Positions 397 to 33,964 of a stretch of DNA of 40,379 bases are shown one piece after another (position 1 is the stretch's first letter; every line of letters starts with the position of its first letter). Below the pieces are notes generated by a model. That model was not told the origin of the DNA, made no database searches, and saw nothing but the letters and a program-made list of their open reading frames with translations. The stretch covers positions 1-40,379 of the forward strand of contig NZ_JACJQA010000022.1 in the NCBI RefSeq assembly GCF_014696355.1. The letters run 5' to 3'. Both the position numbers and the translations under genes were made by a program. Source of the DNA: Pseudanabaena sp. FACHB-1998. GTDB taxonomy: Bacteria; Cyanobacteriota; Cyanobacteriia; Pseudanabaenales; Pseudanabaenaceae.

Positions 397-440
397 TTTA
401 TATATTTTTCTTTTTGTTTTTTAAGCTGATGTCAAGGGTT

Positions 441-590
441 TTACTCTATTTTAATTGCTGTGTATTCTAGTTCTGTTAGTTCAAATTCTGGATTAATAAT
501 TTTTACTTCGTCATAGGTGAGTTGATAGAGTTTGTAAACTAATTGATCGCATTCTTTTTCTAATTCGCTACTATCAGCATGGCGATCGCC
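441..590 (-). repeat. Tail repeat T9 (type A 3' end, SELEKECD variant)
   Basis: On the minus strand this reads as the end of the restriction-methyltransferase at 6288-10079: GDRHAD, then SSELEKECD in place of TTKEEKAID, then LVYKLYQLTYDEVKII and a TAA stop at 441-443. It has no methyltransferase body in front of it. It sits between the DUF5615 stop (606) and the broken DUF433. The rest of 396-605 holds only an AT-rich spacer. Confidence 0.85.
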
Positions 591-605
591 TTACAGTTGA
601 TAGTT

Positions 606-946
606 TTACACCGATGGTAATTTGATTCTAATGAGTTGTTTTTCTATAGTCTCAAATTGAGAGAGATGATTATGTATGGCTTGGGCGATTTTTTCCCAGT
701 TGGTGCTACTTTTGCAAATCACGATGCCTTTATGTTGAGGGATTTGAGTATGTAAACGAATGAAATCTCGGCGATTCATGGTTAAAACGGCTCGATTGAG
801 GCTAATGGCATAGCTCAAGACTTCAGGATCGGGTATTTTTTTTCTGCTTTTCCTGCATCTTGTACGGTCAGGATGTCATACCCTAATGTACGCAAAATTT
901 TGACAACGGGCAATGGAAATTGCTCATCTGCATAGAGTTTAATCAT
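606..946 (-). pseudogene. DUF5615-family putative toxin with a frameshift in an A8 run
   Basis: The frame starts at ATG 944-946, four bases after the DUF433 stop, as MIKLYADEQFPLPVVKILRTL and then GYDILTVQDAGKAEKK. It then leaves frame. The rest (DPEVLSYAISLNRAVLTMNR, then DFIRLHTQIPQHKGIVICKS, ending RIKLPSV) is in the next frame. The break falls at eight consecutive A residues (about 836-843); one more A would join the halves into a protein of about 113 residues. LYADEQFP and VLTMNRRDF are typical of DUF5615, a PIN-like family commonly encoded directly after DUF433. It may be a simple pseudogene, a slippage-expressed gene or a sequencing error. Confidence 0.75.
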
Positions 947-949
947 TGC

Positions 950-1276
950 TTAATCTGTCTCGTTTTCAAGAATAGCTGTGGCAATTTCTTGGGGATGGCT
1001 TTCGGCGTATATCCAAGCATTTGCTAGATCAACTGCGTTTAGGGTTGGATATGCTTCTAATATTTTTGCGTCACTAAGCCCTTGTTGTTGGTAGCTGACT
1101 AATAGCCAAACGGGGATTCTGGTGCTACGGATACAAGCATCACCGCCACATACGTTTAATGTTTTCTCAATGCCGTGCCAACTATTTAATAGGCTGTTGA
1201 GAATTAGTTGAATTGCTTGAGATTTTTCTGTGGGTGAGAGTGCGAGTAGTTGGGGTTCTAGTTCTTTAAGTGTCAT
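950..1276 (-). CDS. DUF433-domain antitoxin with N-terminal extension
   Basis: This 108-residue protein has a DUF433 core from about residue 42 (CGGDACIRSTRIPVWLLVSY, then LSDAKILEAYPTLNAVDLANAW). It is preceded by a roughly 40-residue helical segment beginning MTLKELEPQLLALSPTEK that resembles the N-terminus of small antitoxins. It ends four bases before the DUF5615 frame, the usual antitoxin-then-toxin order. Known members pair with DUF5615 as putative type II TA systems; neutralisation here is inferred. The ATG is 68 bases beyond the stop of tail copy T8. One codon differs from the common CIRGMRIP motif (CIRSTRIP). Confidence 0.8.
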   Translation of the reverse strand: MTLKELEPQLLALSPTEKSQAIQLILNSLLNSWHGIEKTLNVCGGDACIRSTRIPVWLLVSYQQQGLSDAKILEAYPTLNAVDLANAWIYAESHPQEIATAILENETD

Positions 1277-1343
1277 AGTTTTTTGAATTGGATATTTATA
1301 AATCTGCTCTAATTTTTCCTTTTTCCTTTCTACTTTTTACTTG

Positions 1344-1441
1344 TCACCTCTCTCCTTCTACTATTTTAATCTCTTCTTCTGTCAACCCATAAAGTTGATA
1401 AACTAAAGCGATCGCATTCTTTTTCTAATTCGCTAGTATCA
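1344..1441 (-). repeat. Tail repeat T8 (type B 3' end)
   Basis: The minus strand reads SELEKECD, then, after one extra T that breaks the frame, VYQLYGLTEEEIKIVEGER and a TGA stop at 1344-1346. The type B ending differs from the type A ending of the restriction gene but is a familiar ending of related cyanobacterial methyltransferases. Its first bases supply the stop codon of the adjoining RelE gene. Confidence 0.85.
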
Positions 1442-1783
1442 GGATTGTTGATATTCTGTGATGATATTCCTAATCTCTTCGGCTTCAATGTCTGACTGTT
1501 CAGACTTAGGATAAATAGTTAGCAGAACTATTCCTGTTAATGTTTTGAGATAATAAATTAGGCGATAACCTCCACTTTTTCCTTTCTTAATGTCACTATT
1601 TTTAACTCTGAGTTTGAAAACAGGATAGCCAATTCCTGATATTTGATCACCGAGTAGTTCTCCTTGCCCTAGTTGGTTGATAACTGGTTGGAGGTCTTGG
1701 CGAATGTTGCGATATTTTTTGGCAAGAGTGCGTATATTTTTCTGAAAAACGGGTGAGGCTTCAATTTGGATTGGGTTAGTCAT
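1439..1783 (-). CDS. RelE/ParE-family toxin, copy 1
   Basis: This 114-residue protein resembles RelE/HigB-type mRNA interferases. It has an N-terminal VFQKNIRTLAKKYRNIRQDL helical stretch, a basic strand KLRVKNSDIKKGKSGGYRLI with R74, and a late strand LLTIYPKSEQ. It overlaps the upstream antitoxin by 8 bp, typical translational coupling. Its last codon and TGA stop come from the junction with tail T8, so the C-terminus is set by the repeat. Copy 2 at 3448-3792 differs by G39 to E and by the last residue (S to P). mRNA cleavage is inferred from the family. Confidence 0.8.
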   Translation of the reverse strand: MTNPIQIEASPVFQKNIRTLAKKYRNIRQDLQPVINQLGQGELLGDQISGIGYPVFKLRVKNSDIKKGKSGGYRLIYYLKTLTGIVLLTIYPKSEQSDIEAEEIRNIITEYQQS

Positions 1784-2009
1784 TTTCTAGCCCTTCCCAA
1801 AGTTGAGATAGTGGAATTGTTTGACCTGTCATTGCTTCGTGCCATGCTTGGCGAAAGTCCGATATTATTTCTTCTTTGGTGAAGTCTTCTGGTGATTCTG
1901 GAATCAGAACGATGATTTCTACTCGACTGTTTTTGTTTTTTAGGAGGGGACTGTCTAGGGTGATTTGTCCTTGTTCGTTGATGGTTGCCATTGCTTTAAG
2001 TGCTTTCAT
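1776..2009 (-). CDS. Antitoxin of the RelE-type pair, copy 1
   Basis: This 77-residue protein starts MKALKAMATINEQGQITLD, followed by a strand-rich segment VEIIVLIPESP and an acidic helical C-terminus (ISDFRQAWHEAMTGQTIPLS). The layout fits a small antitoxin: a swapped-hairpin-like N-terminal domain and a toxin-binding tail. It is encoded first and overlaps the toxin by 8 bp. Its ATG lies 24 bases after the stop of tail T7, with AAGGAAT as a likely ribosome site. The protein is identical to that of copy 2 at 3785-4018. Confidence 0.75.
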   Translation of the reverse strand: MKALKAMATINEQGQITLDSPLLKNKNSRVEIIVLIPESPEDFTKEEIISDFRQAWHEAMTGQTIPLSQLWEGLEND

Positions 2010-2033
2010 GTTTTTATTCCTTAGTTAAAAGTT

Positions 2034-2140
2034 TTACTCGATTGTAATGGCTGTGTATTCTGGTTCTGTTAGTTCAAATTCTGGGTCAATGATTTTTACT
2101 TCGTCATAGGTGAGTTGATAGAGTTTGCAAACTAAATTAT
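2034..2140 (-). repeat. Tail repeat T7 (type A, 5'-truncated)
   Basis: The minus strand reads NLVCKLYQLTYDEVKIIDPE and on to AITIE with a TAA stop at 2034-2036. The usual GDRHADT start is missing. The repeat begins inside the core AATTTAGTTTGCAAACT, fused directly to the HEPN gene, which takes its stop codon at the junction. Confidence 0.85.
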
Positions 2141-2433
2141 CTAAAGTTAGGACTATAGTCTCCTAATTGTCTAAGATCATAGGCATCATTTAAAAGCTTA
2201 AATATTTTGCGATCAAGTTGGTTTGTTCTGACAAAATGCAGATTTATTAATTTAATGACTCCTTTATGGGTTGATGTTTCTACATTCTCTGATAGCAATA
2301 ATGCTTGAGCAGAGTAGTACATGGCGTAATAAGCACGAGATAAGCAGGATCGATAACGTTGTCCTGCAAATAGAAACTCAGCAGTTTCTAAGTCTTCAAA
2401 AGCTAAATTCAACAACTTACTTATTTCACTCAT
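2137..2433 (-). CDS. HEPN-domain toxin-like protein, C-terminus truncated by a tail repeat
   Basis: The 98 residues match the front of HEPN proteins: helices LLNLAFEDLETAEFLF and YRSCLSRAYYAMYYSAQALL, and the late motif AYDLRQLGDYSPNF. Relatives usually continue for another 25-35 residues after this motif; here the frame stops at R98 where tail T7 begins. The ATG overlaps the stop of the nucleotidyltransferase by 4 bp. HEPN/MNT pairs such as HepT/MntA act as an RNase toxin controlled by adenylylation. The R-x4-H-x-Y motif of active HepT is not seen in full (RQLGDY instead), so activity is uncertain. Confidence 0.75.
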   Translation of the reverse strand: MSEISKLLNLAFEDLETAEFLFAGQRYRSCLSRAYYAMYYSAQALLLSENVETSTHKGVIKLINLHFVRTNQLDRKIFKLLNDAYDLRQLGDYSPNFR

Positions 2434-2771
2434 AGTTTAATTCCCTCGCATTTAGCTATTCTTATCAAGGAAATAGATGATGATATAAATTCTGATTTAG
2501 ATACGGGAATAATTGAGATTAGCTCTCCATATTTATCAATAAAATAAAATCTTATATCAGATGTTTTATATACTTCTTTGACTACATCAACGGGATCTTC
2601 GAGAACAGTCATGATATCAATATCAGAGTCTGGGGTTGCTTCTCCTCTAGCCTGTGAACCAAATAAAATTAAGGAATACAATTGCTGTCCATAAAGATGA
2701 ATTAAATTTATTTTTAGTTCATCAAGTAATCTATGTAATTTTGGACTAATAGTATTTTGATTGTAAAGCAT
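2430..2771 (-). CDS. MNT-domain nucleotidyltransferase (antitoxin partner of HEPN)
   Basis: This 113-residue minimal nucleotidyltransferase has the signature LFGSQARGEATPDSDIDI: G38-S39, then D50 and D52 as metal-binding acids. It lies just before the HEPN gene with a 4-bp overlap, the arrangement of MntA/HepT-like systems where the transferase modifies the HEPN toxin. Its ATG is 13 bases past the tail T6 stop. The C-terminal part (about 60-113) is less conserved. The pairing is firm from context; the chemistry is inferred. Confidence 0.85.
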   Translation of the reverse strand: MLYNQNTISPKLHRLLDELKINLIHLYGQQLYSLILFGSQARGEATPDSDIDIMTVLEDPVDVVKEVYKTSDIRFYFIDKYGELISIIPVSKSEFISSSISLIRIAKCEGIKL

Positions 2772-2784
2772 GGTTTATTTATTC

Positions 2785-2926
2785 CTATTCTATTTTAATT
2801 GCTGTGTATTCTTGTTCTGTTAGCTCAAATTTTGGGTCAATAATTTTTACTTCGTCATAGGTGATCTGATAGAGTTTGCAAGCTAAATTATTGATCGCCT
2901 TTTCTTCTTTTGTCGTATCAGCATGG
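2785..2926 (-). repeat. Tail repeat T6 (type A)
   Basis: The minus strand reads HADTTKEEKAINNLACKLYQ, then ITYDEVKIIDPKFELTEQEY and AIKIE with a TAG stop at 2785-2787. It directly follows the DUF5615 remnant (stop at 2937) and ends 13 bases before the nucleotidyltransferase start. Confidence 0.85.
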
Positions 2927-2936
2927 GGATTACTGT

Positions 2937-3085
2937 TTACCTCTTTCTGATTCTAAATTTATTTTGATCGACAATTACGGTTGCACCAATTATTTCTGGT
3001 AAGTTGACTTGATCGATAAATTTCTCTAATGCTTGTCGAATTTCTATAGCGATCGCTTCAAAAGGAAATCTTAAAATAATTAAGC
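2937..3085 (-). pseudogene. C-terminal remnant of a DUF5615-type toxin
   Basis: In this frame the minus strand reads GLIILRFPFEAIAIEIRQAL, then EKFIDQVNLPEIIGATVIVD and QNKFRIRKR before a stop. The sequence looks like the end of a DUF5615/Mut7-C-like toxin. It has no start of its own: the upstream DNA is the DUF433 gene in another frame, and the two overlap at 3058-3085. The best explanation is a deletion that removed the DUF433 end and most of the toxin. The family assignment rests on context and the RIRKR ending and is moderate. Confidence 0.55.
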
Positions 3086-3291
3086 CGCAAAAGCTCGGAG
3101 AAGTAGGCAAGGGATGCAAGAATCTGTTCGCGGGTGACTGCGTATTCTTGGATTACTTCGTCATAGGTCATGCCACCTGCGAGGGAGCCAATAATCACGG
3201 CGATCGGAAGACGAGTTCCTTTTAGTACGGGTTTACCATGTTGGATTTCGTTGTCGATGGTAATTACATCAGTTAGAATGCTTTTTCTCAT
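3058..3291 (-). CDS. DUF433-family antitoxin with altered C-terminus
   Basis: This 77-residue frame has a normal DUF433 body: ITIDNEIQHGKPVLKGTRLP, then IAVIIGSLAGGMTYDEVIQE and YAVTREQILASLAYFSELL. The last residues (RLNYFKISF) are not family-like and coincide with the switch to the DUF5615 remnant in another frame, so the natural end seems to have been lost in a deletion. The ATG is at 3289-3291, 62 bases after the T5 stop. It may still fold, but its toxin partner is broken. Confidence 0.7.
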   Translation of the reverse strand: MRKSILTDVITIDNEIQHGKPVLKGTRLPIAVIIGSLAGGMTYDEVIQEYAVTREQILASLAYFSELLRLNYFKISF

Positions 3292-3353
3292 AATCTATTT
3301 CCTTATTCAATCTAAACATTTTTACAGAAATCAACACCTTGTCTTTTTTCTTG

Positions 3354-3450
3354 TTACCTTTCTCCTTCTACTATTTTAATCTCTTCTTCTGTCAACCCAT
3401 AAAGTTGATAAACCAAATTGTTGATCGCCTTTTCTTCTTTTGTCGTGTCA
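3354..3450 (-). repeat. Tail repeat T5 (type B 3' end)
   Basis: The minus strand reads DTTKEEKAINNLVYQLYGLT, then EEEIKIVEGER and a TAA stop at 3354-3356. It combines the TTKEEKAI front of type A copies with the type B ending. Its first bases (CCTGACACGAC) create the stop codon of RelE copy 2. Confidence 0.85.
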
Positions 3451-3792
3451 GGGTTGTTGATATTCTGTGATGATATTCCTAATCTCTTCAGCTTCAATGT
3501 CTGACTGTTCAGACTTAGGATAAATAGTTAGCAGAACTATTCCTGTTAATGTTTTGAGATAATAAATTAGGCGATAACCTCCACTTTTTCCTTTCTTAAT
3601 GTCACTATTTTTAACTCTGAGTTTGAAAACAGGATAGCCAATTCCTGATATTTGATCACCGAGTAGTTCTCCTTGCTCTAGTTGGTTGATAACTGGTTGG
3701 AGGTCTTGGCGAATGTTGCGATATTTTTTGGCAAGAGTGCGTATATTTTTTTGAAAAACGGGTGAGGCTTCAATTTGGATTGGGTTAGTCAT
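3448..3792 (-). CDS. RelE/ParE-family toxin, copy 2
   Basis: The protein is nearly identical to the one at 1439-1783: 112 of 114 residues agree by eye (E39 instead of G, and P instead of S at the end). It has the same GGYRLIYYL strand with R74 and the same 8-bp overlap with the antitoxin. The final residue and stop again come from the junction with a tail repeat, here T5. Two almost identical pairs in one array imply recent duplication; cross-neutralisation between the pairs is expected because the antitoxins are identical. Confidence 0.8.
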   Translation of the reverse strand: MTNPIQIEASPVFQKNIRTLAKKYRNIRQDLQPVINQLEQGELLGDQISGIGYPVFKLRVKNSDIKKGKSGGYRLIYYLKTLTGIVLLTIYPKSEQSDIEAEEIRNIITEYQQP

Positions 3793-4018
3793 TTTCTAGC
3801 CCTTCCCAAAGTTGAGATAGTGGAATTGTTTGACCTGTCATTGCTTCGTGCCATGCTTGGCGAAAGTCAGATATTATTTCTTCTTTGGTGAAGTCTTCTG
3901 GTGATTCTGGAATCAGCACGATGATTTCTACTCGACTGTTTTTGTTTTTTAGGAGGGGACTGTCTAGGGTGATTTGTCCTTGTTCGTTGATGGTTGCCAT
4001 TGCTTTAAGTGCTTTCAT
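3785..4018 (-). CDS. Antitoxin of the RelE-type pair, copy 2
   Basis: The 77 residues are identical to those at 1776-2009, although the DNA differs at a few positions (for example near 3869 and 3917). It starts 24 bases after the T4 stop with the same AAGGAAT leader, so the leader and promoter-proximal DNA were duplicated with the genes. Confidence 0.75.
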   Translation of the reverse strand: MKALKAMATINEQGQITLDSPLLKNKNSRVEIIVLIPESPEDFTKEEIISDFRQAWHEAMTGQTIPLSQLWEGLEND

Positions 4019-4042
4019 GTTTTTATTCCTTAATTAAAAGTT

Positions 4043-4201
4043 TTACTCGATTTTAATTGCTGTATATTCTGGTTCTGTTAGTTCAAATTCGGGGTCGATA
4101 ATTTTTACTTCGTCATAGGTGAGTTGATAGAGTTTGTAAACTAAGCGATCGATCGCCTTTTCTTCTTTTGTCGTATCAGCATAGCGATCGCCTTTTTTAG
4201 C
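4043..4201 (-). repeat. Tail repeat T4 (type A)
   Basis: The minus strand reads AKKGDRYADTTKEEKAIDRL, then VYKLYQLTYDEVKIIDPEFE and on to AIKIE with a TAA stop at 4043-4045. The match to the end of the restriction gene begins at GCTAAAAAAGGCGATCGC, 15 bases beyond the PIN toxin stop. Confidence 0.9.
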
Positions 4202-4216
4202 GGGTGACTGTTAGAT

Positions 4217-4657
4217 TTATTCTTCAAATTCTTTTAAGTAGTTTAGAAAAGAATTAACTCCTAATAATTCGATGGAATATAATGCCATTGCTTCTCTCAA
4301 TGTTTCATCGGCGCGTAAGTCGTCATCTCCCGATACAATAATTTTTGCTTTACCGTCAATGGCGGTAGCTAATACGGGTAAATCTTTGGGATCGCGACAA
4401 TAAGGGGGGATTGTTTTTGGTTCAATCCAGATGGCACGATTTGTTAACTGTTGCTCTAGGCGCATAGCTTGAGTTAGGTCAATATATTTGCTTAATCGTG
4501 GTCGGTTCCATACTTCAAGTAGTTCATCCAAAAGATTTTGGCTCATGACTAATTGGAATTTGTCTTGATTAAATGCTTCTAAGATTGGGAGGGTAACGCG
4601 CCCTTTTAAAAGGATGCGAATCCAAATGTTTGTATCTATGACTACTCGAAATTTCAT
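4217..4657 (-). CDS. PIN-domain toxin (COG1569-like)
   Basis: This 146-residue protein has the acidic residues of a PIN nuclease: D8 in VVIDTNIWI, E45 in LLDELLEVW, D92 in CRDPKDLPVLATAI, and the cluster D111-D113 in IVSGDDDL. The CRDPKD...ISGDDDL pattern is typical of the family annotated as a putative TA toxin component of PIN type. It follows its antitoxin with a 2-bp gap. It appears full length, and tail T4 begins just after the stop. RNase activity is inferred from the family. Confidence 0.88.
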   Translation of the reverse strand: MKFRVVIDTNIWIRILLKGRVTLPILEAFNQDKFQLVMSQNLLDELLEVWNRPRLSKYIDLTQAMRLEQQLTNRAIWIEPKTIPPYCRDPKDLPVLATAIDGKAKIIVSGDDDLRADETLREAMALYSIELLGVNSFLNYLKEFEE

Positions 4658-4659
4658 GT

Positions 4660-4893
4660 CTAGTTTTTTGATTGCTGACGCACGGCTTTAATTTCGTTCA
4701 TAATCTCGACATCTGTGATTTCATTGATGGGTGGTTGACTATACAGTTCTTCAAGTAATTTGGTCAGATCTGATTTTAATTCTATTTGAATTAGGGCTTT
4801 AGCTATCTGGGCGCGATCGCTAGGTTGTAGTTGTTGTACGGTTGTAATCAGTTGCTCTAGAGTTATTGGTAGTTGAATCATTTGGTTCACCAT
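4660..4893 (-). CDS. Antitoxin partner of the PIN toxin
   Basis: This 77-residue, mostly helical protein contains LEQLITTVQQLQPSDRAQIA, a segment often seen in antitoxins encoded before PIN toxins, then an acidic C-terminal half (ELYSQPPINEITDVEIMNEI). The frame opens at MVNQMIQL; the second Met (12 bases later) is an equally good start. It sits 2 bp before the toxin. The role is assigned mainly from gene order. Confidence 0.65.
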   Translation of the reverse strand: MVNQMIQLPITLEQLITTVQQLQPSDRAQIAKALIQIELKSDLTKLLEELYSQPPINEITDVEIMNEIKAVRQQSKN

Positions 4894-4937
4894 AAAAATT
4901 TGTTGTCTATGACTTTAACTTGCATAATTTTTCTTTA

Positions 4938-5097
4938 TCACCTCTCTCCTTCTACTATTTTAATCTCTTCTTCTGTCAACCCATAAAGTTGATAAACCAA
5001 ATCGTCGATCGCCTTTTCTTCTTTTCTCGTATCAGCATGGCGATCGCCTTTTTTGACGTTCATAATTAAATCGGTAAGTACCTGAATCGAATTGAAA
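4938..5097 (-). repeat. Tail repeat T3 (type B, longest copy)
   Basis: The minus strand reads FNSIQVLTDLIMNVKKGDRH, then ADTRKEEKAIDDLVYQLYGL and TEEEIKIVEGER with a TGA stop at 4938-4940. Residues before KKGDRHADT line up with FQKISMLVDEILTA in the restriction protein, so this copy keeps more of the parent gene than the others. That supports an origin from a methyltransferase coding region. Confidence 0.85.
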
Positions 5098-5126
5098 CAT
5101 CGCTTACAGAGATAATTACATCATTT

Positions 5127-5381
5127 TTAAGTTCTGTCTGCTTGGGCGGTTTGCCAAAAGATGACTCGTTCTTGGGGGAGCCAAGCGGCATATCTAAGCG
5201 CTTGCTGGATATCTGCTGGTTCAAGATAGGGATAGTCTTCAATTATTTCTGCTATTGATAAACCGTTGGCGATAAGGTTTATGACTACGGATACGGGTAT
5301 TCGCATTCCGCGAATGCAAGCTTGACCTGCCATAATTTTGGGGTCAAAGGTGATGCGATCTAGTCCTGCTATTGCTTTCAT
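5127..5381 (-). CDS. DUF433-family antitoxin without a toxin partner
   Basis: This 84-residue protein is a textbook DUF433: RITFDPKIMAGQACIRGMRI, then PVSVVINLIANGLSIAEIIE and DYPYLEPADIQQALRYAAWL. It starts 12 bases after tail T2. The DNA after its stop (5126-5098) has no room for a toxin before tail T3 begins, so a DUF5615 partner is either lost or never present. It could act on toxins of neighbouring DUF433 pairs; that is speculation. Confidence 0.85.
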   Translation of the reverse strand: MKAIAGLDRITFDPKIMAGQACIRGMRIPVSVVINLIANGLSIAEIIEDYPYLEPADIQQALRYAAWLPQERVIFWQTAQADRT

Positions 5382-5393
5382 TGTTTTTGCCTC

Positions 5394-5543
5394 TTATTCT
5401 ATTTTAATGGCTGTGTATTCTAGTTCTGTTAGTTCAAATTCTGGGTCAATGATTTTTACTTCGTCATAGGTGAGTTGATAGAGTTTGTAAACTAAGCGAT
5501 CAATCGCCTTTTCTTCTTTTGTCGTATCAGCATGGCGATCGCT
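5394..5543 (-). repeat. Tail repeat T2 (type A)
   Basis: The minus strand reads DRHADTTKEEKAIDRLVYKL, then YQLTYDEVKIIDPEFELTEL and AIKIE with a TAA stop at 5394-5396. By eye this is among the closest copies to the 3' end of the intact restriction gene. It begins 8 bases beyond the PIN stop and ends 12 bases before the DUF433 start. Confidence 0.9.
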
Positions 5544-5551
5544 CATTAGGT

Positions 5552-5962
5552 TTATCGTAGCAAGGCTATAAATCCTGCTTGTTCAAAATGTTTATCATAG
5601 GCAATCGCTTCTACTATGTTTTGTTGCTGCATGATTTGAAATGATGTGCAATCTGTATGACTCCAAGCTTGATCGCGTCGTTGATCGTATAGCTCAAGAG
5701 CATTCTGAAATAGCGCGTCAGTTTGCAAAATCACTTCGATTTCAGGATTTGTAAAGGCGTGTTTGATAAATCTAACGGCTTTTTGTCGATAGGATTTACC
5801 TTTGCCAGAGAAGGCGTTGAGTAGTTCAGTAAATACCATTTCACTGGTAACTATAGGAGTTGAGATTAAGGTAACTGATATTTGTCGTGCTTTTTGATGT
5901 AGGTCATCTTCGGGGTTGAGCAGGGCGATCCAGTAGCCTGTGTCTGCAAATACTTTCTTCAT
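5552..5962 (-). CDS. VapC-like PIN-domain toxin
   Basis: This 136-residue protein has the PIN pattern: D7 in VFADTGYWIAL, E46 in MVFTELLNAF, D104 in SHTDCTSFQIM and D123 in AYDKHF. Length and motif order fit a VapC-type RNase toxin. The start overlaps the upstream antitoxin stop by 4 bp (ATGA), the usual coupling of type II TA pairs. It is the first cassette after the restriction gene. The target RNA is unknown. Confidence 0.88.
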   Translation of the reverse strand: MKKVFADTGYWIALLNPEDDLHQKARQISVTLISTPIVTSEMVFTELLNAFSGKGKSYRQKAVRFIKHAFTNPEIEVILQTDALFQNALELYDQRRDQAWSHTDCTSFQIMQQQNIVEAIAYDKHFEQAGFIALLR

Positions 5963-6231
5963 GCTTGTTCTTTGGGTGTGCCGTATAGATAATGATCTAG
6001 ATTTTTGGCAAGGTCTTTGGGAATATTTGTTTCTGTTGGGATCTCAGAGTTGACTTGATCGATAAAGCTCAAAAAATCTGGAATATTAGATTCTTTAGCT
6101 TTTTGAATAGGTTCTTGTTTGGAGATTTCGTTGGTTCGGGTTTTGATGAATAAAAAGAAATTCAAGACTTCGCGTATTAAAAAGTCTGGGGCTTGATCTA
6201 GTTCATTAATTAGTTGTTCTTTGTCTGACAT
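5959..6231 (-). CDS. Antitoxin-like protein paired with the PIN toxin
   Basis: This 90-residue protein has a DUF2281-like N-terminal helix pair (LINELDQAPDFLIREVLNFF, then LFIKTRT) and a C-terminal half rich in acidic and polar residues (IPDFLSFIDQVNSEIPTETN) that would suit toxin wrapping. It precedes the PIN toxin with a 4-bp overlap. AGGAGT lies 7 bases upstream of the ATG as a ribosome site. The name rests on the N-terminal resemblance plus gene order. Confidence 0.7.
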   Translation of the reverse strand: MSDKEQLINELDQAPDFLIREVLNFFLFIKTRTNEISKQEPIQKAKESNIPDFLSFIDQVNSEIPTETNIPKDLAKNLDHYLYGTPKEQA

Positions 6232-6287
6232 GGTGATTACTCCTATTGTTTTTTGTTTTTGGGATTCTTTTATCTATATCACAGGCT

Positions 6288-6437
6288 CTACTCCATTTTA
6301 ATTGCTGTATATTCTTGTTCTGTTAGTTCAAATTCTGGGTCAATGATTTTTACTTCTTCATAGGTGAGTTGATAAAGTTTGTAAACTAAGCGATCGATCG
6401 CCTTTTCTTCTTTTGTCGTGTCAGCATGGCGATCGCC
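6288..6437 (-). repeat. Tail repeat T1: the copy inside the restriction gene
   Basis: These bases encode the real C-terminus of the restriction-methyltransferase: GDRHADTTKEEKAIDRLVYK, then LYQLTYEEVKIIDPEFELTE and AIKME with a TAG stop. It is the only copy still joined to a methyltransferase body, so it is taken as the reference for T2-T9. Confidence 0.9.
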
Positions 6438-9400
6438 TTTTTTAGCAGTAAGAATTTCGTCAACAAGCATGGAGATTTTCTGAAAATTACTTTTACTGCT
6501 AGGAAACGGAAATTCTTTGAGATCTTGAATTAAAATTTTAGGAAAAGTATCTTTTGAGCTATTGCCAGATTTATTTAAATGAAAGAATCGTGCAAATTTA
6601 GAGTTAAGTATAGCAAGCAAGACTTTTAAATCTTGAAGATTATTTGATTTGCTTTTTATTCCATCAACCGAATTTGAGAAAACATATTCATCAAATATTA
6701 ATGTTGCAAAAATATGTCCTTTTGATGTAACCTCCCTAACAACAATTCTGGGACTAGCCTCAAACCATATTGGCTTTCTAGGTTCAGCAATCCACTCTCC
6801 ATAATTTACAAAGCCACCTTTCCATGACAAGCTATATGGAAAAATCTCACTACCTCCAATTAAAGGCTTATGTGTAGGAGTGAGATGCCTTGCTGAATGA
6901 AAGATTTTCTGTTGTGATTCATCACCAGTTTGAGGAGGGTTTCCAAGACCTTTTTTATAAACTTTTATTCCCCATATCACATCAAAATAATCATTAACTT
7001 TTTCGTTAGAATTGATTATTTTTTTTGTCAGTGTAAAATCACTTGATTTTGAAAATGAACTAATTGAATATCTTTCATTGGATATAATATCATCAAATAA
7101 AACCTTGTTTAATTCTTCTTTTTTAAGAGAATAAACTTCAAAAAAATCTTTGTTGTTTTTTGGGACACATTCTAAAATACAGGTTTCAACTACGGCATCA
7201 TCAAAGGTATTAACTGGGCAAGTTGTAATACTATCAATAAATTTATTGTCTATCAAATATTTTCTGTATTGAGTATCATAAATTGATGCATACCAAGTAT
7301 TAGGAATAATAAAACACAAAATAAATTTAGGATTGCTAATCTTTATACCTAGTTCGGTAAATAAAGTATATGTATCAATTTGATAATTTGATACTTGATA
7401 GTTTTGCCTAAATAGAAAGTCTTCCTGTTTATTTAATTTCACTCCATAAGGCGGATTACCAATAACTACATCGAATCCGACAAAATCACCATTATCATTC
7501 AAAACTTCAGGAAACTCAAACCGCCATTCCAAGGCATTCTCGTATAGCCGACCGCTTTCAATATCCTCAATCTCCGCACTTAACTTATCAATCTCATTAT
7601 TTAACTTACTAACCCGCTTCTCCCTAGCCTTAACCTCCGCCTTAGTCTCCTCCAATAACAACATCTGATTTTCCACGCCATAAAGCTCCGCCTGTAACTG
7701 CCGTAACTTCACCTTCTTAGGATCACCAGCCAACAAACTCGAACTAAAACCAGTCTTAATCTTCGCAATCAAACTTTCCATCTCTCGCTTTTGTGCCTTA
7801 CTTTCCGCACTGCGATAAGTCTGCACCGCATTCCGATACTGCTCAATACTAAACTTCTGCTTCTGCAAAACCTGCTTCACATCCACATCCAACCCAAACC
7901 GACTAATCAAAGAATTCCCACACTTGATATTAATGTCGATATTCGGCAAAGTTTCCAGATCTACCCCCCCTAGCCCCCCCTTTGGAAGGGGGGGGATTAG
8001 ATTCCCCGTTTTTTTCTCCATTTCTCCCCTTTGCAAGGAATCTCTCTCCATCCCCCCCCTTTGCAAGGGGGGGCTAGGGGGGGTTTTATAATAAGCATTC
8101 TTCAAAAGCTCAATCCACAACCGCAAACGGCAAATCGTCACCGAATTGGGATTAATATCCACCCCAAACAAACAACCCTCAATAATCGACTGCTTCTCAT
8201 GAAACAGCGCTTCCTGAACCCTTTGACTTTCCTTGTTTTTAGGATTATAAGCAAACAACTTACCATCCAAAGTCACCTTCAACTTATCATTAACCACCTC
8301 AATCTCATACTGACTCAAAACCTCACCCTTGCGATCGCGCAAAATCCCCAGATAATGCTTAATCGCAATCATCTCATTCAAAGCCGACACCAAAAAATGC
8401 CCCGAACCCACCGCAGGATCGCAAATCTTAAGACTATTAAAAATTCCATTAGCCTCATTTCTGCGAACCACTCGATCTGACTTCCTAATATAGTTACTCA
8501 AATCATCCTTGAGATCCTGAATATTCTCACAACTCCAGCCCATCTCCTCATTAAACTTCTGCACCACCGCCCGCCGTATCGTCTCGCGACACATATACAT
8601 CGTAATGAAACTCGGCGTATAAAAAGAACCATCCTTATAGCCATTAATCTTCTCAAAAATCAACCCCAAAACCGAAGCATTAATCAACTTCTCACTATCT
8701 TCTTGCGTATCTTCCAACTCATCGCGATCAAATTTATAAGCATCCAAAAACTCAAATAAATATGCCAATGCATTCAACTTACCCGATCGCTTATTGCCAT
8801 TACCATCTTTAAGAACTGTCGCCCCAAAAATTAGCAGATCCCGATCCTTGAGATTGCCAATAAAAATTGTCTCCTGCTCTGTCTCCGTTGGTTCAAATAA
8901 CGAACTATTCAAATAAGGCACATTAACAAAAGCATCTCTCACCTTTGCCTCGCGCTTATCCTGTTCCTTTGCTAATACATCAAAAAACAAACTATCAAGA
9001 TCATCATAGTTCTGTACCTTTGCCAAATTCAAGAATGCAAATTCACGGGCAGACTCGCGATCGCCTTGATGATATTTGATTAACTGCGCCTCCAATAACT
9101 TCAAAAACAAAACCCGATTAATCCAATTAATCGACAATCGCAAAGCCACATTAAATAACTTTTCATCATCAGTCACCCCAAACTCTTCAGGCTTAGACAG
9201 CCGCGACAGTTTCCCCAAACTATCCAAACGACTAATCGCATTCTCAATCAGTGAACCCTCATCGCGATCGCCCTCTGCCCTGCGATCGATTAACTTCTTG
9301 CCCTTATCCTTAAATTCTGTCAAGCCAATGATATACAGCAACTCATTATAAAAAGGCTTATTTAAACTATTGCTATCATTCACAAAAGGCAACTTCAGCA

Positions 9401-10079
9401 AATGCTCAGGCGAAAAAATCTTATAAAGCTCGATTAGATCCAACTTCTCAAGATCGCGCAAATCAAAATGCGTGAATTTAATTTGATCGATAACATTCGC
9501 GATCGCAGGTTTCGCAATCTCCTTATAAAAAAATTCCGTCTTATCTCCACCTAACCGCTTTTCTTGAAACTCGATAAACTTCTTTTTTAAAGCACTATCG
9601 TTATAAAACAACTCTTCAAAAATCCGCGCATCAAAAATAAACCACTCATAAATATTCGTCACCACCAAATGCTTAATACCAACATTTCCATGCGTCAGCC
9701 TTTCCCGCAAAAAATATAAAACCAACTGCTGCACCGCCTTATCATTTAGACTGCCAACTTTCGGCATCTCCACACTGCCCGTCTTAGTTGGCTTCTTAAT
9801 CTCAAAGATCACCCCCACCGCACTTTCTACATTTTTATCATTGTGGATCACCAAATCACTATTTTCTTTCGTATTAATGAAATAGCGATCAATGTAATAG
9901 GTCTTTTTTAAAAAATCACTCAGCAGATTTTTATTAAACTCTTCATCTTTTTTGCTATCACAAAGCTCAAGCATCCGCCCCAAATTAGCCTTAAACCCCT
10001 GAATATTTTCCCCATCAGGCTTAATCTTCAAATACGTCTTATTTAATGCTTGCTTTAGCTCTAGCTTATTGACGATCAT
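6288..10079 (-). CDS. Single-chain restriction enzyme/adenine methyltransferase (type IIG, Eco57I-like)
   Basis: This 1263-residue protein combines restriction and modification. The N-terminal nuclease region has D75 (NSDLVI) and E93-x-K95 (IFEIKKP), a PD-(D/E)xK arrangement. A helical region follows, then an N6-adenine methyltransferase with motif I DPAVGSGHF (D554) and motif IV GNPPY (875-878). A coiled coil (about 770-850) precedes motif IV, and a TaqI-type specificity region (about 950-1210) closes the protein. Residues of about 666-703 are an in-frame low-complexity insertion made of a GC-rich repeat. The ATG is at 10079; XisH lies divergently upstream. The TA array follows on the same strand. 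BREX PglX is a related fold, but no other BREX genes are visible here. Confidence 0.88.
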   Translation of the reverse strand: MIVNKLELKQALNKTYLKIKPDGENIQGFKANLGRMLELCDSKKDEEFNKNLLSDFLKKTYYIDRYFINTKENSDLVIHNDKNVESAVGVIFEIKKPTKTGSVEMPKVGSLNDKAVQQLVLYFLRERLTHGNVGIKHLVVTNIYEWFIFDARIFEELFYNDSALKKKFIEFQEKRLGGDKTEFFYKEIAKPAIANVIDQIKFTHFDLRDLEKLDLIELYKIFSPEHLLKLPFVNDSNSLNKPFYNELLYIIGLTEFKDKGKKLIDRRAEGDRDEGSLIENAISRLDSLGKLSRLSKPEEFGVTDDEKLFNVALRLSINWINRVLFLKLLEAQLIKYHQGDRESAREFAFLNLAKVQNYDDLDSLFFDVLAKEQDKREAKVRDAFVNVPYLNSSLFEPTETEQETIFIGNLKDRDLLIFGATVLKDGNGNKRSGKLNALAYLFEFLDAYKFDRDELEDTQEDSEKLINASVLGLIFEKINGYKDGSFYTPSFITMYMCRETIRRAVVQKFNEEMGWSCENIQDLKDDLSNYIRKSDRVVRRNEANGIFNSLKICDPAVGSGHFLVSALNEMIAIKHYLGILRDRKGEVLSQYEIEVVNDKLKVTLDGKLFAYNPKNKESQRVQEALFHEKQSIIEGCLFGVDINPNSVTICRLRLWIELLKNAYYKTPPSPPLQRGGMERDSLQRGEMEKKTGNLIPPLPKGGLGGVDLETLPNIDINIKCGNSLISRFGLDVDVKQVLQKQKFSIEQYRNAVQTYRSAESKAQKREMESLIAKIKTGFSSSLLAGDPKKVKLRQLQAELYGVENQMLLLEETKAEVKAREKRVSKLNNEIDKLSAEIEDIESGRLYENALEWRFEFPEVLNDNGDFVGFDVVIGNPPYGVKLNKQEDFLFRQNYQVSNYQIDTYTLFTELGIKISNPKFILCFIIPNTWYASIYDTQYRKYLIDNKFIDSITTCPVNTFDDAVVETCILECVPKNNKDFFEVYSLKKEELNKVLFDDIISNERYSISSFSKSSDFTLTKKIINSNEKVNDYFDVIWGIKVYKKGLGNPPQTGDESQQKIFHSARHLTPTHKPLIGGSEIFPYSLSWKGGFVNYGEWIAEPRKPIWFEASPRIVVREVTSKGHIFATLIFDEYVFSNSVDGIKSKSNNLQDLKVLLAILNSKFARFFHLNKSGNSSKDTFPKILIQDLKEFPFPSSKSNFQKISMLVDEILTAKKGDRHADTTKEEKAIDRLVYKLYQLTYEEVKIIDPEFELTEQEYTAIKME
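7962..8085 (-). repeat. GC-rich palindromic repeat inserted in frame in the restriction gene
   Basis: The segment contains runs such as CCCCCCCTAGCCCCCCC and CCCCCCCTTTGCAAGGGGGG, with outer parts that are near inverted repeats of each other. Translated, it gives PPSPPLQRGGMERD, SLQRGEMEKK and LIPPLPKGGLGGV, a pattern found in short dispersed repeats of cyanobacteria. It has no stop codon in the gene frame and lies between methyltransferase motifs I and IV, where a surface loop would tolerate it. Confidence 0.8.
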
Positions 10080-14021: not shown

Positions 14022-14311
14022 TTTTTGAGCGGAATCCCTAGCTGTTGCCATTCTGGTTAGGACAAATCAAAACCTAAGAAGCGAGTTGCGGCGCTAAGCG
14101 CCGCAACTCGCTTCTGGTTCGGTGCGCTAACAAAAATGACAACAGCTATACAAAAAAATCTTGAGAGAACCTACGCCATTTTTGACAAGATGTGATAACG
14201 TATTGGCACTTTCGTGCTGTCAGAAATTGGCATCCTAGAGAAACCTTAAAAATTAGCGTAACTAATTTTTGAGCTTGGCAAGCCCCCCGATCGCTACTGC
14301 GTATATTGCAT
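14022..14311. repeat. Intergenic region before smc with an 18-base-arm palindrome
   Basis: A palindrome at 14078-14114 has perfect 18-base arms (GAAGCGAGTTGCGGCGCT) and a one-base loop. It has no T-run, so it looks more like a dispersed repeat than a terminator. Nearly the same arms occur at 32431-32466 in a terminator-like setting. The remaining bases up to smc hold no visible gene. Confidence 0.7.
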
Positions 14312-32375: not shown

Positions 32376-32420
32376 GCAAAGGACATTTTATAGCAAAGCT
32401 AGAGTTAGCCAGTACAAACC

Positions 32421-32475
32421 AAAACCAAAAAAGCGAGTTGCGGCGCGAAGCGCCGCAACTCGCTTTTTTGGTTTT
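32421..32475 (+). terminator. Terminator of map with a repeated core
   Basis: There are 26-base perfect arms (32421-32446 and 32450-32475) with a GAA loop, ending in TTTTTT. The core GCGAGTTGCGGCGC is shared with the palindrome at 14078-14114, though the loops differ. Confidence 0.85.
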
Positions 32476-32671: not shown

Positions 32672-33919
32672 ATGACATTAACTTACGAAAAGACTTTGGC
32701 GGATCAAGTCAGAGCAGATTTTGAAATACTAGATCAACAGGTCAACGGCAAGCCCCTCATTTATTTTGACAATGCCGCTAGTTCCCAAAAGCCCAAATCA
32801 GTAATCGCCGCATGGAAGTATTATTACGAGCATGATAATGCCAATGTCCATCGAGGCGCACATACCCTCAGCGCCAGAGCCACTGATGCCTACGAAGGAG
32901 CGCGAGAAAAAGTCGCCAAGTTTGTGAACGCGAAATCCTTTCAAGAAATTATCTACACTCGCAATGCTAGCGAAGCGATTAATCTAGTTGCCTATACTTG
33001 GGGCTGGGCAAATCTGAAGGAGGGGGATGAGGTCATTCTCTCGGTGATGGAACATCACAGCAATATTGTGCCTTGGCAATTGATTGCTCAACGCACAGGC
33101 GCAGTCTTGAAGTTTCTGGAACCTAATGAGGATGGAATATTAACGATAGAACAGTTCAAATCCTTGCTCAATGGAAAAACTAAGTTAGTTTCTATCGTTC
33201 ATGTCTCTAATACCTTAGGCTGTGTTAACCCAGTAGAAGAGATCATCTCTCTCGCCCATGCTCAAGGGGTAAAAGTATTACTGGATGCCTGTCAGAGCGT
33301 GCCACATATGCCCATTGATGTCCAGAAGTTAGATTGCGATTGGCTCGTTGCTTCAGGACATAAGATGTGTGCGCCAACGGGAATTGGCTTTCTTTATGGC
33401 AAGCGTGATCGCTTGCTAGAGATGCCTCCCTTTATGGGCGGCGGCGAAATGATTTCGGAAGTCTTTCTCGATCATTCTACCTATGCGGAATTACCACATA
33501 AGTTTGAGGCAGGAACTCCCGCCATTGGTGAGGCGATCGCCCTTGGTGCAGCAGTAGATTATCTCATGGCGATCGGCATGGATAAAATCCACGCCTATGA
33601 ACAGGAATTAATCAATTATTTGATGGATTATTTGGTAGAGATTCCCGATATTAAAATTTATGGGCCCCGCCACGATCGCGCGGGTCTAGCGGCTTTCACG
33701 ATCGCGCATGGTATTCATGCCAATGATTTATCAGCTATGCTCGATCAAGATGGTATTGCGATTCGTTCTGGACATCATTGCACTCAGCCCTTACATCGCT
33801 TTTTAGGAATTAGCGGCACTGCTAGGGCGAGTGTCTATTTCTATAACACCAAAGCAGAAGTAGATACTTTTGTCGCTTCCCTTAAAGATGCGATCTCTTT
33901 TTTCAAAAGCGTCATCTAA
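32672..33919 (+). CDS. sufS: Cysteine desulfurase SufS
   Basis: This protein of about 415 residues is a PLP-dependent class V aminotransferase-fold enzyme that releases sulfur from cysteine for iron-sulfur cluster assembly. K231 in [12 protein letters not shown] binds PLP, and C370 in [14 protein letters not shown] is the persulfide cysteine in the short loop typical of Suf[13 protein letters not shown] and [14 protein letters not shown] are family motifs. The frame also opens at 32633, but [17 protein letters not shown] fits usual SufS starts. In many cyanobacteria sufBCD sit beside it; here they do not. Confidence 0.94.
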
Positions 33920-33923
33920 ACCA

Positions 33924-33964
33924 CACAAGAGAGGGTTGGTGCGAAGCACCAACCCTCTCTTGTG
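33924..33964. terminator. Hairpin after sufS
   Basis: There are 19-base perfect arms (CACAAGAGAGGGTTGGTGC at 33924-33942 and its complement at 33946-33964) with a GAA loop. It starts 4 bases past the stop and has no T-run. Confidence 0.75.

Follow-up and report, generated by a model that had tools for sequence, protein, structure and literature searches.

A GC-rich palindromic insert read in frame within a Type IIG restriction-modification gene of Pseudanabaena, and the association of such palindromes with DUF559 nuclease genes

Codons 665-707 of a Type IIG restriction-modification gene in Pseudanabaena sp. FACHB-1998 are GC-rich palindromic DNA that was inserted into the gene and is read in frame, and the protein loop in which they lie is a hot spot that inserts of different classes have entered repeatedly. 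We interpret the segment as a nuclease-less copy of a REP-like palindromic family that enters tolerant coding loops and survives when in frame, a reading to which we assign a probability of roughly 0.55. The insertion is a direct observation; as to its mover, we infer that it was probably a DUF559 nuclease acting in trans. Because one loop combines repeated insertions with clean empty sites, the process can be counted, and a candidate mover emerges from the palindromes, namely DUF559, a domain of unknown function. The hot spot, the DUF559 association and the inserts of this sort that carry a nuclease or a transposase all go beyond an earlier note on this DNA, which had described the segment itself.

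Results

The host gene and its palindromic insert

The window, i.e., the whole stretch of 40,379 nucleotides that was analyzed, carries the following features at and around the insert.

6288..10079, minus strand: host gene, Type IIG restriction-modification enzyme, 1263 aa (Pfam DUF7149-DUF7814-Eco57I MTase-TaqI_C)
7446..7457, minus strand: NPPY (alignment position)
7959..8087, minus strand: hot-spot loop, residues 665-707, with the palindromic insert inside (5 or 8 residues in the 16 of 30 sequences that are empty)
7962..8085, no strand assigned: palindromic element, 124 bp (repeat search and DNA fold)
7963..7997, no strand assigned: outer arm 1, consisting of C-run, CTAG tag and palindrome CCCCCCCTTTGGAAGGGGGGG (repeat search and tag grammar)
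8024..8040, no strand assigned: third palindromic unit, central and decayed, CTCCCCTTTGCAAGGAA (seen in the sequence)
8050..8084, no strand assigned: outer arm 2, inverted, consisting of palindrome CCCCCCCTTTGCAAGGGGGGG, CTAG tag and G-run (repeat search)
8394..8420, minus strand: DPAVGSGHF (alignment position)

The host open reading frame matched the PADLOC family REase_MTase_IIG (6.8e-236), and its predicted product unites the fused nuclease, N6-adenine methyltransferase and specificity domain of the Type IIG class, the nuclease part being assigned through that PADLOC family. Known relatives of the gene include Pseudanabaena cinerea. The Pfam Eco57I match (residues 636-953) spans the insert, which lies between DPAVGSGHF and NPPY, presumably methyltransferase motifs I and IV; the earlier note had placed it rightly, and the position can be narrowed to the stretch that follows the helix after DINPNSV and precedes the NIDINIKCGNSL strand. 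The same note had described about 38 residues of a palindromic repeat translated in frame within a methyltransferase, and this description holds, in that the frame crosses the segment without a stop, the two arms of 35 nt each are 91% complementary, and the peptide of the filled loop, KTPPSPPLQRGGMERDSLQRGEMEKKTGNLIPPLPKGGLGGVD, comprises 43 residues, which is 38 above the 5-residue empty allele. AlphaFold2 models of the methyltransferase domain with the insert (5 sequences) reached a mean pLDDT of 46 and were set aside.

Folded as single-stranded DNA, the 124 nt attained -42.8 kcal/mol (z -6.35), a value as low as which was found in none of 200 dinucleotide shuffles, and the GC content of the element is 59% against 44% for the window. 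The element displays the REP trait of a short GC-rich palindrome in an inverted pair, and its central unit looks, by eye, like the one in the middle of L004, an intergenic copy. Of the features by which a MITE would be recognized, the arms are inverted, and neither a target-site duplication nor a fixed target sequence was seen beside the insert, where the filled allele replaces about five codons. Pfam detected no nuclease domain inside the insert. As had been noticed before, the frame is kept and no stop is introduced; the idea that the element avoids stop codons is ruled out, since two of its six frames are open against an average of 1.8 in mononucleotide shuffles, so that the element is not specially stop-poor.

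At positions 418-6446 of the window, the 3' end of the Type IIG gene is repeated at nine places (its own end counted and two repeat families merged), in alternation with small genes that resemble toxin-antitoxin pairs (PIN, RelE-like, HEPN/MNT and DUF433). The arrangement suggests an array of cassettes, each supplied with a restriction-gene 3' end of its own, and similar tail copies were observed near relatives of the Type IIG gene in other genomes.

Recurrent insertion at a single loop

A first set of six orthologues exhibited the motif R-x-D-G-N at the loop in G011, G002, G027 and G001, and in-frame palindromic inserts, unlike that of the window in sequence and length, in G022 and G018. A search of 388 genomes of the class returned a match at 1e-30 or better in 42, and the loops of 28 of these (the window's genome included) were analyzed along with two Bacteroidota loci, totaling 30; outside this set stand 14 further genomes and the second copies in G123, G145, G180, G198 and G234. 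The loop was empty in 16 of the 30, with 5 or 8 residues and no hairpin, and filled in 14, with 13 to 55 residues. Orthologues without the insert, for which the earlier note had advised looking, are thus frequent, and the case that it named as contrary to insertion, a segment common to all orthologues with ordinary variation, fails on these empty loops and on the other 13 filled inserts, which differ in sequence, length or unit number. The insert shows the pattern by which elements of the Rickettsia type are recognized, lying in frame in a conserved open reading frame and missing in orthologues.

Hairpins with 8-bp GC-rich stems, belonging to several classes, were present in 10 of the 14 filled loops. 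The loops of G202, G204 and G153 yielded no hairpin with the stem lengths applied and were counted as filled by their SPLTPLLxGEG-like peptide, which four hairpin-bearing loops (G123, G176, G198 and G137) also encode; the filled loop of G234, likewise without a hairpin, was called by its peptide alone. The insert kinds are accordingly that of the window, that shared by G022 and G018, that of the seven SPLTPLL-like genomes, and those of G158, G180, G168 and G234. Two sisters on the tree, G158 and G168, differ in the kind of insert, and tandem units number four in G180 and two in G198.

On a gene tree built without the loop, parsimony required seven changes, at least five of which are forced by well-supported branches. 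A single ancestral insertion without loss in the window's family is ruled out by the trees; the Pseudanabaena rows taken alone may reflect one gain and two losses, or recombination. GC-rich hairpins with 8-bp stems numbered 15 in 1,533 bp of loop against 1 in the 104,121 bp elsewhere in the same 30 open reading frames, as far as the loci reach. This concentration, in combination with the repeated gains and losses, identifies the loop as an insertion hot spot, by tolerance, targeting or both. None of the 28 cyanobacterial and two Bacteroidota sequences has a nuclease-carrying copy at this loop. That the loop might be an ordinary low-complexity stretch diverged by point mutation, as its variable length even without palindromes (5 or 8 residues) could suggest, is vanishingly improbable in view of the strong hairpins, sharp edges and near-alike flanks, and is refuted by the relatives with an empty site.

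The palindrome elsewhere in the genome and genus

The earlier note had also proposed seeking the repeat in the rest of the genome (4.78 Mb, 64 contigs), and the exact core CCCCCYTTNSNAAGGGGG indeed occurs at 13 places there, two of them in the window element, with no occurrence of the backward control. Nine of the remaining 11 lie in a MITE with both ends recognized, one has a single recognized end and one has neither. A DNA search with the whole element yielded three further, looser relatives, on contigs C13, C56 and C34; the one on C34 has a DUF559 nuclease gene 70 bp away, and this gene in turn lies in frame in an MmeI-type enzyme. Across the genus, the core was detected in 23 of 26 genomes and the backward control once each in two of the 26.

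In four related genomes, 40 core places were classified among the matches listed (28 in G022, from which places beside DUF559 were excluded, 5 in G016, 3 in G013 and 4 in G004). Thirteen of them are in frame in open reading frames of at least 500 aa, 8 are beside a MITE end and 19 are elsewhere, so the remark that such repeats are mostly intergenic in other places is right only in part. Pfam scans of 7 of the 13 hosts assigned a CobN/Mg-chelatase, a nitrite/sulfite-reductase-like protein, three WD40 proteins and a CHAT-TPR protein, one host being without a Pfam match, and no restriction enzyme was found among these seven. For the loop of the nitrite/sulfite-reductase-like protein, 12 of 30 loci were parsed and no conclusion is drawn from it.

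The MITE, with ends AGAGCGTGTTTGAGAAGT / ACTTCTCAAACACGCTCT, holds C-run/G-run palindromes and has nine two-ended copies in the window's genome (L007, L016, L018, L020, L022, L024, L026, L028 and L030); it is an end of this same MITE that accompanies the 8 core places in relatives. The window also has palindromes of another family, long, near-perfect and unrelated to the first (GCGAGTTGCGGCGC and similar), at 14059-14113, 32411-32475 and 33907-33961.

Association of the palindromes with DUF559 nuclease genes

The genus contains 59 DUF559 matches, of which 44 score at least 96 bits and 15 less than 40 bits, and palindromes are about ten times as frequent beside DUF559 genes as in the background. 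In the neighborhood of the 44, GC-rich hairpins reached 3.41 per kb in the 400 bp before the gene and 2.33 per kb in the 400 bp after it, compared with 0.93 per kb at 400-800 bp before, 0.11-0.44 per kb further out and at most 0.02 per kb in shuffled sequence; no hairpin was found within 400 bp of the 15 low-scoring DUF559-like matches. Palindromes are also common away from DUF559, at 0.1-0.4 per kb. The grammar of a C-run followed by C(T/C)A(G/A/C) and a C-rich palindrome was observed in 99 of 155 hairpins near DUF559 and in 58 of 249 far from it, and the window element, with CTAG between C-run and palindrome, fits this DUF559-side pattern. Standalone DUF559 genes carry the same palindromes as the embedded ones.

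The divergence of the nucleases is correlated with that of their palindromes, measured as 5-mer distance (Mantel r 0.49, p 1e-4; 18 representatives below 85% identity, 20,000 permutations, not tree-aware), a correlation which could partly stem from shared descent of whole loci. The window palindromes are closest to the classes at L124 (0.91), L127 (0.90), L141 (0.89) and L137 (0.80), resembling the class that stands beside DUF559s of the LPYNP/LPYDP type in other Pseudanabaena genomes. No DUF559 of this type was found in the 64 contigs of the window's genome, whose two DUF559 genes are of other kinds; with the best-matching clade missing here, the copy would have moved before the nuclease was lost, or would have come by recombination.

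Association and co-variation fall short of proof that DUF559 moves the palindromes, and the nuclease could be a passenger. The palindromes might even spread with no dedicated enzyme, by replication template switching, recombination or gene conversion between copies, DUF559 being a passenger or beneficiary; the change of unit number in place at the loop of G180 and G198 is what slippage would give, and recombination could also yield the scattering of carriers on the tree. We consider such enzyme-free spread unlikely, as it leaves unexplained the presence of a nuclease between palindromes in unrelated genes, the co-variation of the two and the conservation of the embedded nuclease.

DUF559 modules in frame inside other proteins

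Twenty-five of the 44 DUF559 domains are in frame in open reading frames of at least 400 aa and 19 are in frames of 122-180 aa; in L110 and L122, the frame stops 35 and 106 residues past DUF559. Among 13 of the 25 hosts that were scanned, 12 themselves contain domains of restriction-modification enzymes or DNA methyltransferases (Type ISP, MmeI, HsdR, Eco57I-type and DUF1156), and the thirteenth, L122, was assigned only through its likeness to L131; the other 12 hosts join restriction-modification hosts by blastp clusters.

The residues E15, D44, E55, D57 and H61 are invariant in 26 DUF559 copies, embedded and standalone, and by their sequence look like an EDxHD active site. The DUF559 profile matched PDB 3hrl (3e-34) and 3r3p, which is I-Bth0305I (2.5e-5), and the AlphaFold2 model of a DUF559 relative from a viral contig (pLDDT 87) matched 3hrl and 3r3p (TM 0.72) and, more weakly, Vsr. 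DUF559 relatives are present on IMG/VR viral contigs (L308-L387), several of them 6-8 kb long. In the MmeI host, the embedded DUF559 is under strong purifying selection, with a dN/dS of 0.051 compared with 0.084 and 0.181 for the host parts and 0.48 and 1.22 for the palindromic linkers (8 genomes, 28 pairs).

DUF559-plus-palindrome modules are found in frame inside proteins whose relatives have the site empty. For the MmeI host (194 genomes), in which DUF559 splits the methyltransferase domain between the GNSL and NPPF segments, the flanks are 3-18 bp apart in six close relatives (G022, G385, G459, G027, G001 and G387) and the module is present in six others, two of which have a stop inside the match. 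The loop of the Type ISP enzyme contains DUF559 in five genomes and, at the same point in two, a Y1_Tnp domain with its own palindromes; it is empty in two more distant copies, one of them from the window's genome. This host is in a single frame only in G024 (DUF559) and G005 (Y1_Tnp), being broken upstream in five of the seven. The two Y1_Tnp domains in frame in Type ISP enzymes, at L183 (G022:C1:4604084) and L249 (G005:C292), have palindromes on both sides, by which they appear RAYT-like.

Such loci bear on the possibility that the window insert is a classical REP element moved by a RAYT (a Y1 tyrosine transposase of the HUH type), DUF559 being unrelated. In addition to the Type ISP loop that takes Y1_Tnp in some genomes and DUF559 in others, this explanation can draw on Y1_Tnp domains in 22 of the 26 genomes of the genus (RAYT and IS200-type pooled), on hairpins near Y1 transposase genes above background (0.58 vs. 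0.15 per kb), and on cyanobacterial REP families and intragenic REPs already in print (PMC3733652). We nonetheless regard it as rather unlikely: the palindromes beside Y1_Tnp genes (e.g., AAGGGGCTTAAGCCCCTT) are unlike the C-run/G-run class of the window, that class was absent within 400 bp of Y1_Tnp in the 30 of 52 loci examined (four of which are cut by contig ends), and the tag is CTAG in the window and CTAG, CCAG or CTAC in its relatives, with no 5' GTAG.

Beyond the genus, PriA matches extended through a DUF559 module in 3 of 78 genomes from a different family of the phylum; of 30 PriA loci fetched, 21 were parsed, 3 with DUF559 and 18 without, and Pfam recognized PriA domains on either side of DUF559 in L195 and L192. 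Pfam also located DUF559 in or beside proteins of two further kinds, a GHMP kinase, presumably IspE (L191, L204 and L206), and the M14 peptidase of L201; in L196 it forms the end of a radical-SAM protein. In both PriA and HsdR, the module directly precedes one and the same motif, which we take to be Walker A. The frame at L191:334-2064, of the GHMP-kinase (IspE-like) kind, has two DUF559 domains, one before the kinase and one inside it.

Restriction-modification genes as the sole home of these elements are ruled out by the DUF559 modules in PriA and GHMP kinase and by the nuclease-less palindromes in the CobN/Mg-chelatase, nitrite/sulfite-reductase-like, WD40 and CHAT-TPR proteins. One could still suppose that the embedded DUF559 is a true nuclease domain acquired by restriction enzymes through fusion, and that the palindromes are linkers grown by repeat expansion, given that the tested hosts in the genus are restriction-modification or DNA-methyltransferase genes and that purifying selection acts on the domain in the MmeI host. 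We judge this quite improbable, because the domain splits the methyltransferase of MmeI and directly precedes the Walker A of HsdR, close relatives do without it, it recurs in PriA, GHMP kinase and M14 peptidase, and standalone genes have the same palindromes; on the window insert, which has no nuclease, the fusion explanation is silent.

Discussion

Returning to a palindromic family with DUF559 as its probable mover, we propose that the DUF559 protein, with its I-Bth0305I/Vsr fold, would nick or cut the target DNA and would recognize or protect the palindromes, and that the break would then be filled during repair by a copy of the element, which may or may not include the nuclease gene. Movement would be homing-like or RAYT-like and would involve no splicing, the translation of the element would provide a flexible loop tolerated by the enzyme, and frame-breaking copies would be lost by selection.

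More tentatively, and at somewhat less than even odds, the modules may represent an undescribed class of mobile element, in which a DUF559 gene of the Vsr/EDxHD fold, bounded by tagged palindromes, homes into tolerant loops next to catalytic motifs and is kept as an in-frame domain without splicing, nuclease-less palindromes such as that of the window being non-autonomous derivatives. On this reading, a host methyltransferase would shield the cell from the embedded nuclease and so bind both together, for which reason restriction-modification genes would be favored homes. Against DUF559 as the mover speak the lack of a junction signature, the absence of a nuclease-carrying copy from the window's loop, the hairpin-rich surroundings of Y1_Tnp, the decay of some hosts and a correlation to which shared descent could contribute. 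If the nuclease does move the palindromes, DUF559 "fusions" in restriction enzymes, PriA and others would have to be read as mobile insertions instead of domain architectures, and insertion of an element would be a way for proteins to gain a whole new domain without splicing.

Comparison with known systems

In-frame palindromic elements have so far figured as an oddity of Rickettsia and of some REP-bearing genomes, and many of them are not known to have a mover. The Rickettsia palindromic elements (RPE) were reportedly described by Ogata and Claverie, and palindromic elements of Wolbachia are said to behave likewise. By analogy, and as the earlier note had surmised for Rickettsia, these resemble the elements described here in being small palindromic DNAs found in frame in unrelated genes, where they encode short extra peptides; the organism is another one and the likeness is one of description, and what the present data add is that one loop is used recurrently and that the palindromes are linked to a nuclease gene. 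Mobile GC clusters of yeast mtDNA (var1) and the double-hairpin elements of Allomyces mtDNA are also GC-rich palindromes that insert in frame, unlike the present ones in being mitochondrial, and we know of no nuclease gene that travels with them.

In-frame Rickettsia elements and intragenic REPs are described in PMC3733652, which portrays GTAG/CGTC REPs as palindromes of 20-40 bp, often paired, with a tag by the stem and with some copies in open reading frames, and lists the cyanobacterial families GTAG-12, -15 and -16. The elements reported here differ from these in their tag (CTAG/CCAG/CTAC), in their partner, which is DUF559 and not RAYT, and in the occurrence of whole enzyme-gene modules in frame. 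The RAYT superfamily, with cyanobacterial subclasses, is described in PMC6006769, and the RAYT / TnpA-REP REPtrons it covers are similar in that a gene for a single-domain DNA enzyme is flanked by its palindromes; the fold is that of an HUH tyrosine transposase there and of a Vsr/EDxHD nuclease here.

I-Bth0305I, of the EDxHD/Vsr fold, is akin to DUF559 in fold and profile and in insertion near conserved motifs of important genes, whereas DUF559 modules leave the reading frame of the host simply continuous. Caulobacter VsrA, according to the excerpted text of PMC12907096, is a DUF559 protein functionally tied to a DNA methyltransferase and a predicted mismatch-repair nuclease; it differs in being a separate gene, and that excerpt mentions no palindromes. 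A tie of DUF559 to palindromic repeats or to in-frame insertion was not found in the titles and abstract openings of open-licence papers that name DUF559 or in the accessible parts of PMC3733652, PMC6006769, PMC12350094, PMC1913061 and PMC12907096; in other literature the repeat may bear other names. Set beside these systems, the in-frame palindrome is of a kind already known, the hot spot and the link to a nuclease are new, and in-frame modules that carry a nuclease may be of a kind not described before.
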